Of a DNA stretch of 33,416 nt, positions 16,125 through 33,416 are shown one piece after another. Below the pieces are notes generated by a model that was not told where the DNA came from, searched no databases, and saw only the letters and a program-made list of their open reading frames with translations. The first letter of the stretch is position 1. Each line of letters opens with the position of its first letter. Made by a program: the position numbers and the translations under genes. Source of the stretch: Gammaproteobacteria bacterium (GTDB taxonomy: Bacteria > Pseudomonadota > Gammaproteobacteria > GCA-001735895); NCBI GenBank assembly GCA_024229615.1, contig JAAESG010000593.1, forward strand, positions 1-33,416, read 5' to 3'.

Positions 16125-16481
16125 ATGAAGCATTTGTTAGCAGGTTTACTGCTGCTGTCTACCGTCAGTTACGCTGACGATGTCCGTATCAGGGAAGTTA
16201 CCGTGGAATGCCCTGCCAGCTGCACCTTTTCGGTTACCCTGGAACACGCCGATCAGGGTTGGGATCATTACGCGGATCAATGGGATGTCGTTACCCTCGA
16301 CGGCAGTTTGTTGAAGTCGAGAGTGTTGCATCATCCGCACGACAATGAGCAGCCATTTACACGTTCACTATCGGGTGTTTTGATTCCAGAAGGTGTCAAC
16401 CAGGTAAAAATCCGTGCCAGGGACAAGCTTCACGGCTACAGCGAGCAGGAATTTATTGTCGATATTCCGGGGCGCAGCTAG
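16125..16481 (+). CDS. Small conserved periplasmic protein of unknown function
   Basis: 118 residues with a clear signal peptide (MKHLLAGLLLLSTVSYA, cleavage about residue 17). The mature part has two cysteines four apart (C29, C33; ECPASCTF) that could form a disulfide, and the segment HADQGWDHYADQWDVV. I recall similar secreted proteins in other proteobacteria but no named function. The predicted secondary structure is mainly beta, compatible with a small beta-sandwich. It is the last gene of the prmB group, 15 bp after the zinc-ribbon gene, and is followed by a hairpin. Confidence 0.65.
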   Translation: MKHLLAGLLLLSTVSYADDVRIREVTVECPASCTFSVTLEHADQGWDHYADQWDVVTLDGSLLKSRVLHHPHDNEQPFTRSLSGVLIPEGVNQVKIRARDKLHGYSEQEFIVDIPGRS

Positions 16482-16483
16482 GC

Positions 16484-16584
16484 GCCTGTTAACGGGATAT
16501 TTAAAATCGTGTTAACAGGCCCCCATGGCATTTACATTGAGTCCGAAAGCATTGATTTTCGAAACCTGTGCGGAATGTAAATGC
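16484..16584. repeat. Two adjacent long inverted repeats after the prmB operon
   Basis: GCCTGTTAAC/GTTAACAGGC (16484-16493/16511-16520) is perfect over 10 bp and starts 3 bp after the stop at 16481, so it may act as a terminator, although no T-run follows. GCATTTACATT/AATGTAAATGC (16528-16538/16574-16584) is perfect over 11 bp with an inner CGAAA/TTTCG pair. They adjoin repeat copy A. Confidence 0.6.
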
Positions 16585-16599
16585 TCAATAGACTTCTAA

Positions 16600-16740
16600 G
16601 GCCGGATAAGCGATGAAAGTTTTCGCGAAGTAAACCGCAGGCGGCGTAGCCGCCGAGGCATTCGCGAAAACTTTCATCGCTTATCCGGTCCTGGTTGGCC
16701 TGGTATGACGATGGTTGCGAGCTTAAGTAAGTGCCATTCT
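16600..16740 (-). repeat. Dispersed palindromic repeat, copy A
   Basis: The core is a 28-bp perfect inverted repeat (16602-16629/16661-16688) whose 31-base spacer contains a second hairpin GGCGGC-GTA-GCCGCC (16640-16654). A 52-bp tail ends in AGTGCCATTCT, the complement of AGAATGGCACT. On the minus strand, bases 16740-16646 match copy B (33322-33416) at 86 of 95 positions by hand alignment. No ORF with coding character is inside. It ends 10 bp from the LysE pseudogene stop. Confidence 0.85.
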
Positions 16741-16749
16741 TATCAAGCA

Positions 16750-17372
16750 TTACGGTTCTTGCCATAGCAGGCGCAAGCCCAGGAAAACCAGTACGCTGCC
16801 GGGAATCCATCGCTGGACCCAGTCTCCCCATTGGCCGCGCGTGCGGCTGGCGCCGGAGGCGACGAGGCAGGCGATAGATCCGTTTACGGTGACCCCGGTG
16901 ACCAGGAATACGGAACCCAGTGCGACGGATACGAGGAAACCGGGTTCGGCCACCGAGTTCAGAAACTGGGGAATGAAGGCGAGGAAGAAGAGTGCGATCT
17001 TGGGGTTGAGCGAATCGACCAGTAACCCGCGCCTGAAATATGACTAGCCGTTGACCTCGGTTTTGTCATCCGTGTTGGTCACCGTTTGCCGACCGCCGCG
17101 TAACAGGCCGATGCCAAGATATATCAGGTATGCGGCACCGAGATACTGAATCGTGGTGTAGGCAAATTCCGAAGTCGCCAGTAAGGCGGCTACGCCACTG
17201 GCTGCCAGCAGGATATGCAGGAAGGCTCCGGTGGTCATCCCGAGTACCGCGAAAAGACCTGCCTTGAAACCGTGTGCGGCACTGATTGACGTCACCAGTA
17301 GTACCGAGGGTCCGGGTGACAGGTTGACCGCAAGACAGGCGACCACGAGTAAGACAAAGCTTCCAGGCTCAT
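16750..17372 (-). pseudogene. LysE/RhtB-family amino-acid exporter, broken by a frameshift and an in-frame amber stop
   Basis: Two in-frame halves of one LysE/RhtB transporter are separated by a TAG at 17044-17046. The upstream half has FVLLVVACLAVNLSPGPSVL and GAAYLIYLGIGLLRGG; the downstream half has GLLVDSLNPKIALFFLAFIPQF, the conserved family motif, and a final membrane segment. The upstream half has no start in its own frame. The ATG overlapping the decarboxylase stop (ATGA at 17372-17369) would give MSLE and then enter this frame if one base were restored. With that base the gene is exactly 208 codons, normal for the family. The family exports amino acids; this copy is probably inactive. 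Confidence 0.8.
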
Positions 17373-18772
17373 GGGTGTGCGTCTTGTGCTTGCTCGCGAG
17401 CAGCGACGAAGGCTTCAACCGAACGCGTGACATCCTCCGAGGTGGTTGCCCATGAGCACACGCTGACTCGAATGACGCTACGTTCCTGCCACTGAGTGCC
17501 ACCCACCCAGCACTCACCGGATCGTTGAATTTTTTCGATCGTAGCGATAGTCACCGGATCACAATCACAGGCAACCAATACCTGGTTAAAGACCACTTCA
17601 TTGAGGATTTCAAAACCTTGCTGCTGTAATTCCTGGGCAAACTGAACGGCGCGTAAATGCAATCCGTAAACCAGATCGTCGGTACCGGACTTTCCCAGAT
17701 ATTTCAGCGCAGCCCAGAGTTCGAAAATTCGAGAACGACGTGACATTTCTGGCGTATGTAACATGCCGTCGCGATGCTCACTGTAGACGATATAAGCGCC
17801 TGAGGCGTGCAGGGCATTGACTAGCGCATCGCGATCACGGCACATGATGACCCCGCTATCATAGGGTGTGTTGAGTGTTTTGTGGCCATCGAAAGACCAG
17901 GAATCAGCGAGTCCGATGCCCTGGGTCAGATGATTCAGTCGTTCACTGGCCGCGGCCCAGAGACCAAATGCGCCATCGATATGTACCCAGGCGTCAGCAT
18001 TTCGGGCTTTGCTACACAGGGTTTCAAAATCATCGAAAGCACCCGAGTTTACGTTACCTGCCTGTAGAATCAGGATCGTGGATTGGTCGAGCTCGGGCAC
18101 CAGTTCGGTTTTGATTCTGCCCTCAGCGTCGGAATCCACCCACTCTACATTGTCGATCCCGAAACCAAGCAGAGCGATCGCCTTGGATACGGTACCGTGC
18201 GCCTGCCGACTGGCGACGACGCGCAACTGCGGCGCATCGGTGAAGCCCTGCCGATTGATGTCCCATCCAAGCCGCGTGAAACTTCTATGCCTGGCTGCGG
18301 CGAGACCACAGAAAATAGACATCGACGACCCGCTGACGTAACCGGCAATAGCGCCGTCGGGCAATCCGAGTAAGTCCCGTAGCCAGGCTTCGGTGACTTC
18401 TTCGAGACGTGATGCAACCGGTGATGTCAGGTAAAGCGGGGTATTTTGATCCCAGAAATCGGTCAACCAGCGCACTGCCAGGCTGGCGGGTATGATACCG
18501 CCGTTAACCAGTCCAAAATAACGCCCACCAATTTGCGCTACGGTTGCCGGGGAACCGTGCGTGTCGAGCTGCTGCAGAATGTCCAGCGCGTCTCCGGATT
18601 CATCCGGTAATGGCTCGTCAAATCTGCTCAGATTGTCTATCGCCTGGGGCGTAGGAAATACGTTGCGCTCTAGCGATTGATCGGCGTAACGGTAAGCGGC
18701 GTTACGAGCCGCATCGAAAATATCCTTGTGCTTCATTTCGCTGAACATGCGCTTGCGGATTTCGTCAGTCAT
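17369..18772 (-). CDS. Group II pyridoxal-phosphate decarboxylase (aromatic/glutamate-type)
   Basis: 467 residues. PLP-site landmarks: His192 in ASRQAHGTVSKA (stacks on the cofactor), Asp266 in HIDGAFGLWAA (pyridine nitrogen) and the Schiff-base Lys298 in SFDGHKTLNTPYDSG. YFGLVNGG and TSPVASRLEEVTEAW fit the aromatic-L-amino-acid/glutamate decarboxylase superfamily. The substrate is not determined, and the usual aromatic-binding N-terminal residues are not clearly conserved. Its ATG lies inside the end of the upstream UDG-family gene (8-bp overlap) and its stop overlaps the exporter pseudogene, so the three form a coupled set. Confidence 0.85.
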   Translation of the reverse strand: MTDEIRKRMFSEMKHKDIFDAARNAAYRYADQSLERNVFPTPQAIDNLSRFDEPLPDESGDALDILQQLDTHGSPATVAQIGGRYFGLVNGGIIPASLAVRWLTDFWDQNTPLYLTSPVASRLEEVTEAWLRDLLGLPDGAIAGYVSGSSMSIFCGLAAARHRSFTRLGWDINRQGFTDAPQLRVVASRQAHGTVSKAIALLGFGIDNVEWVDSDAEGRIKTELVPELDQSTILILQAGNVNSGAFDDFETLCSKARNADAWVHIDGAFGLWAAASERLNHLTQGIGLADSWSFDGHKTLNTPYDSGVIMCRDRDALVNALHASGAYIVYSEHRDGMLHTPEMSRRSRIFELWAALKYLGKSGTDDLVYGLHLRAVQFAQELQQQGFEILNEVVFNQVLVACDCDPVTIATIEKIQRSGECWVGGTQWQERSVIRVSVCSWATTSEDVTRSVEAFVAAREQAQDAHP

Positions 18773-33321: not shown

Positions 33322-33416
33322 AGAATGGCGCTTACTTAAGTTCGCAACCATTGTCTTACCTGTCCAACCAGGACCGGACAAACGGTGAAAGTTTTCGCGA
33401 ATGCCTCGGCGGCTAC
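33322..33416 (+). repeat. Dispersed palindromic repeat, copy B, cut by window end
   Basis: Begins AGAATGGCGCTTACTTAAG and reaches the first arm of the long palindrome and its inner GGCGGC hairpin before the window stops. It matches the minus strand of copy A at 86 of 95 positions. Most differences are in the tail or the outer stem; the final 26 bases are identical. Confidence 0.85.

Follow-up and report, generated by a model that had tools for sequence, protein, structure and literature searches.

The window, that is the whole stretch of 33,416 nucleotides analysed here, contains two copies of one repeat, A and B, in opposite orientations (Table 1). The two were identical at 84 of 93 positions by a by-eye count on the alignment. 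Copy A is flanked by convergent genes, and both the location at gene 3′ ends and the absence of a transposase inside the repeat, as described in an earlier note on this DNA, were confirmed. The hairpin of copy A is 91 nt long and is flanked by 11-bp terminal inverted repeats (TIRs). The 28-bp perfect palindrome described before was borne out: the arms at 16602–16629 and 16661–16688 are fully (100%) complementary and are separated by 31 nt, and the chance expectation of such an inverted repeat in 33 kb is approximately 3e-11 (i.i.d.). The centre of the loop forms a 6-bp inner stem with a variable triloop. The unit had been given as 16600–16740, which we corrected to the limits in Table 1. A REP-like palindrome lies directly at the insertion point, and no clean 11-bp duplication was observed at the flanks of copy A itself. 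On the minus strand, positions 16756–17517 hold a frame that by eye resembles a LysE-type exporter, with an in-frame stop at approximately 17044.

Table 1. Positions of the two copies, their parts and the adjoining palindrome in the window.
Feature	Position	Strand	Remarks
Copy A, complete element taken as a MITE, 215 bp	16524..16738	+	30-copy alignment; TIR-pair scan (L001 1465-1679); right end confirmed
Copy A, left TIR	16524..16534	+	consensus AATGGCACTTA; 2 changes in copy A
Copy A, left stem arm	16600..16629	+	28 perfect bp and two further outer pairs, of which one is G.T
Copy A, loop	16630..16660	+	GTAAACCGCA, then GGCGGC-GTA-GCCGCC, then GAGGCA; near-invariant across the family
Copy A, right stem arm	16661..16690	+	
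Copy A, right TIR	16728..16738	-	TAAGTGCCATT
Copy B	33324..33416	-	half of the loop plus a single TIR, outer arm and stem arm; the contig end cuts the rest
REP-like palindrome	16481..16523	.	arms 16481-16501 / 16503-16523, 81% complementary

The visible arm of copy B differs from copy A at three stem positions, in agreement with the earlier reading. Two of these three differences arise because copy A departs from the family consensus, and copy A has a compensating change for each. Contig C324 begins, and contig C522 ends, with an exact match to the arm variant of copy B; the other arm in C324 has the matching change (GTTTGTCC). Because two contig ends have the same arm variant, C324 is not assignable to copy B with certainty.

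Copies, gene context and distribution of the family

The genome of the window (5.24 Mb, 735 contigs) was searched with the 16600–16740 stretch, which gave at least 75 matches with 40 of 99 candidates scored. The loop pattern with up to three mismatches was found at at least 46 places, and the reversed control gave 0. The proposal of a dispersed repeat family is supported. Thirty aligned copies from this genome define a unit of approximately 213 bp that starts with AATGGCACTTA and ends with TAAGTGCCATT. A TIR-pair scan of the loci in this genome gave 30 TIR-bounded units, 26 of which contained the hairpin core. Both TIRs were present at 72 of 114 cores and neither at 10, several of which retained recognisable outer arms with decayed ends. 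The sequence comparisons establish the family and its ends.

A simple ORF rule called the genes on both sides of 77 copies; of these gene pairs, 44 were convergent, 24 tandem and 9 divergent. The loop strand was the same as that of the gene 3′ ends in 55 cases and opposite in 57. A strand-specific role at gene ends was rejected on these counts, and the lack of any preference of the loop strand makes a strand-specific effect on adjacent transcripts unlikely. Composite arrays with cores in series and two cores within one TIR pair were seen at L169:1264-2139 and L170:4761-5078. Inside one copy and beside another (L016 and L054), there is a further palindromic repeat (ATTTCTCACCACC...GGTGGTGAGAAAT).

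The 213-bp query matched 10 of 143 relatives, a count that includes the own genome and stays within one genus, and a structure-model search gave 5 of 41 genomes of the order. In named genome contigs, a search that may omit records very near the genome of the window, the exact loop was found in three MAGs only (JAIBDO01; JAAEOZ01, G024; and JARFPR01, G009), all titled Gammaproteobacteria bacterium. All finds of the family came from a single genus of gammaproteobacterial MAGs. The exact loop was not found in viral contigs, and viral spread was rejected on that basis. Rfam returned no family at the gathering threshold; the best sub-threshold match was a microRNA hairpin (38 vs 63 bits) on both strands, which was taken as chance, and assignment to a known structured RNA family was rejected. 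A literature search of open-licence full texts found no paper with the TIR string or such an element.

Target sites and the candidate transposase

We compared the flanks of 73 TIR-bounded units. An 11-bp target duplication with at least 9 of 11 identical bases was observed in 34 units, and 39 fell short of this identity; after register shifts of 1–3 bases, only 0–3 units reached it. The preferred target is symmetric, RGGTCWGACCY, and 61 of 68 readings had C at position 5 and G at position 7. The reconstructed empty sites had a fold z below −2 in 7 of 34 cases, compared with 1 of 65 controls, and this better folding fits insertion into small palindromes. A query built by joining the flanks of each of seven copies located the copy A site in congeners. 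The site orthologous to copy A was empty in all five congener junctions read (G025, G006, G001, G007, and G028), where the two genes are joined directly with 3–76 bp between them. Match coordinates suggest the same empty site in five further genomes (G003, G005, G022, G023, and G026). The repeat is short, gene-less, present in many copies, bounded by TIRs (AATGGCACTTA / TAAGTGCCATT), and has both a target-site duplication and an empty orthologous site. It almost certainly represents a new IS4-type MITE family.

Of the 31 genomes of the genus, 16 have the TIR core AATGGCACTTACNTAAG, around several different short interiors. Congener loci L166–L185 (e.g. L171:3239-3391 and L173:1911-2063) hold MITEs with IS4-type ends and other hairpin interiors such as GTCATTCCCGCG...CGGGAATC; one TIR class thus bounds several unrelated hairpins. 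In G011, an identical TIR is followed by an IS4-type transposase reading frame that runs up to the contig end. In G021 (L187), an intact frame of 483 aa lies between GAATGGCACTTGGTTAAG and inverted GAATGGCACTTGGTTAAG. This frame scored 214 bits with NF033592, the NCBIfam IS4 family model (cut-off 115), and 66 bits with PF01609, and its translation has by eye the Y(2)R(3)E(6)K spacing. Table 1 of PMC2266710 gives, for the subgroup IS4, ends of -AATR--------WTW----, duplications of 10–13 bp and a length of approximately 1.5 kb, and the same source states that some IS4 members have high target specificity at insertion. The ends G-AATG-GCACTTAC-TTA, the size of the parent element and the duplication of 11 bp agree with the subgroup entry, and G021 has an IS4-type transposase between such ends.

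An N-terminal 73-aa query for the transposase of the G011 and G021 kind gave 0 matches in the own assembly, which consists of 735 contigs and from which a multi-copy IS may be missing. We infer the mobiliser from congeners because the own assembly gives no such match. Judged from these sequences, the most likely mover of the family of copy A is an IS4 transposase, acting in trans, that is now seen only in congeners. The earlier suggestion of movement in trans is supported as probable, with IS4-family ends as the match.

Covariation of the stem and constancy of the loop

We determined the covariation of the stem using 44 aligned hairpins, which were drawn from 59 cores of the own genome and relatives; L029 and the second L092 core (indels), L125, and most G026 rows were omitted. 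Changes that keep pairing occurred on both sides in 20 of 30 pairs. The alignment contained 60 cells with two-sided changes compared with 7.8 in shuffles (sd 3.4), none of 500 of which was as high, and an arm-sliding control gave at most 15 such cells. A wider set of 37 hairpins from several genomes gave 23 of 30 pairs, with 165 cells compared with 49.0. Neither the inner 6-bp stem nor the internal loop showed covariation, and there was hardly any change in either.

The mean pairwise distances were calculated for 18 complete copies among the 23 oriented ones from the own genome, with exact GTAAACC in that orientation as the requirement; L023, L027, L030 (inverted), L106 (changed first loop base), and L095 were left out. 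The distance was 0.020 for the loop (28 fixed bases), 0.233 for the triloop, 0.090 and 0.120 for the stem arms, 0.166 and 0.168 for the outer arms, and 0.099 for the TIRs. In G026, 28 unique copies recruited by outer arm, end, and outer stem, without use of the loop, had 5 changes in 784 loop sites. Six of these 28 copies had the loop in inverted orientation with respect to the outer arms, and 3 of 30 copies of the own genome had a visibly inverted loop. Covariation, loop constancy, and loop inversion can all be read from the aligned copies.

The earlier note had held that compensated stem changes would indicate selection for the hairpin. Such changes exist, but selection for the hairpin is not implied by them alone, because template switching homogenises the arms and inverts the spacer and inverted loops were seen. 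As described in PMC8604942, template switching between the arms of an inverted repeat has both effects, and PMC8794818 argues that it maintains RNA hairpins. Template switching would thus cover the paired changes and the loop inversion as one mechanism. Among the distinct cases of own-type stem changes (L139 omitted), the two-sided changes comprised 14 of transition type and 12 of transversion type, and the one-sided changes 23 and 12, respectively, a contrast that is not significant (Fisher p 0.43). Stepwise compensation via G.T pairs would predict rare transversion-type pairs. Two-sided transversions were as common as transitions, which agrees with arm copying and not with passage through wobble pairs. 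On the loop strand, G.T mismatches outnumbered A.C mismatches (35 vs 18 distinct events, p 0.027, pair 6 excluded), and position 6 was a T.G pair in 24 of 55 G026 hairpins. The constant loop and the G.T excess are not explained by template switching and point to selection on the folded strand.

Proposed origin and comparison with known systems

Taken together, an IS4-moved MITE with template switching on its stem and selection on its loop is the explanation that we consider probable; our confidence in this combination is below that in the MITE assignment because the claims of template switching and loop selection are less certain. The transposase would act on the AATGGCACTTA ends and duplicate 11 bp of a symmetric target, often within small palindromes. 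During replication, the stem arms would template each other, with changes copied from arm to arm, and this templating would sometimes flip the loop. Selection would hold the loop almost constant, most likely because the folded strand is recognised by some factor. We infer the identity of the transposase, template switching as the cause of the covariation, and selection on the loop from the comparisons described above. Only tentatively do we propose that GTAAACCGCA / GGCGGC-nnA-GCCGCC / GAGGCA is a recognition motif not described before, which a host or element factor needed for the spread of the MITE reads in the form of a folded single strand (RNA or ssDNA); the stem would then only present the motif.

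Stepwise selection for a functional RNA or ssDNA fold, with true compensatory mutations and no template switching, would also account for the strong covariation and the invariant loop, and the G.T excess over A.C (35:18) and the frequent T.G pair at position 6 in G026 speak for it. We regard this explanation as rather unlikely, since two-sided transversions are not depleted (12/26 vs 12/35 one-sided), the inverted loops in G026 are predicted by template switching, the strand is not biased with respect to the adjacent genes, and no Rfam family reached the threshold. Short-read assembly through palindromes might instead have produced both the loop constancy and the inversion as artefacts. Contigs often end within the element, and the start of contig C414 (L009) is clearly an artefact, a fold-back of element and flank; L009 was rejected as a full 187-bp palindrome because the fold-back at the contig end includes the flank. 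An artefact is nevertheless highly improbable as the general cause, because the two-sided stem changes vary between copies, which collapsing would not create, and the inverted loops in G026 lie mid-contig in contigs that bear k141 names. We take these names to mean MEGAHIT with k = 141, which is longer than the 91-nt hairpin.

The remaining two explanations concern movement. The hairpin core might be mobile in its own right and have hitch-hiked into IS4 ends, as the same TIR class around other hairpin interiors in congeners and the tandem cores at L169 and L170 would allow; this is improbable given that both TIRs are found at 72 of 114 cores and that several of the 10 TIR-less cores retain outer arms. 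A REP/BIME-like palindrome moved by a RAYT (Y1 transposase), the link considered in the earlier note, would likewise be palindromic, intergenic, and located at gene 3′ ends, and the own genome has six Y1 transposase matches. Scans of these loci (L160–L165) found neither the hairpin core nor the TIR pair, the matching ends belong to IS4-family elements, and TIRs with 11-bp target duplications are features of DDE transposons. A RAYT/REP origin was rejected on the basis of the Y1 loci and is extremely improbable; movement in trans by an IS4 transposase, and not by a RAYT, is the best reading of the sequences. In the own genome, contigs C161 and C257 (L160 and L161) carry Y1 (IS200-like) genes with similar flanks and no link to the MITE.

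Under the probable combination of IS4 movement, template switching, and loop selection, the many copies of one hairpin are a natural experiment that separates arm-to-arm copying from selection on the loop. They also give a warning that covarying stems in repeats do not, by themselves, prove a functional RNA. The defined 28-base motif is offered for tests of binding partners.

Several known systems resemble the family in part. REP palindromes associated with RAYTs are also intergenic and present in many copies, but those described in the relevant part of PMC3733652 are 20–40 bp long and lack IS4-type ends and 11-bp duplications; the element here is a unit of 215 bp with TIRs rather than a palindrome of 20–40 bp beside a Y1 transposase. 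RUP of Streptococcus pneumoniae, a MITE of IS630-Spn1, is small and gene-less and has been proposed to move in trans through the transposase of an IS with similar ends (PMC2229807). RUP belongs with another IS family, and an interior hairpin with a constant loop is not among the features given for it in that section of the source. YPAL (RU-2) of Yersinia, 168 bp long, shares the palindromic interior, the intergenic location, the dyad-symmetric targets, and the occurrence of empty and filled sites; its duplications of 3–26 bp and lack of TIRs, as given in the same section of PMC2229807, differ from the TIRs and 11-bp duplications found here. ISRm22, of the IS4 family, has every one of its copies in a REP, and other IS elements also target REPs according to the passage in PMC1525189. 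The targets of the MITE are symmetric and tend toward hairpin-forming DNA; the element here is a MITE rather than an IS, and its targets are not all proven REPs. A further likeness is to the subgroup IS4 as tabulated in PMC2266710, with which the family shares the end consensus, a duplication within the range of 10–13 bp, a parent of approximately 1.5 kb, and an IS4-type DDE transposase in congeners, and from which it differs as a MITE without a gene in which only the ends are IS4-like.
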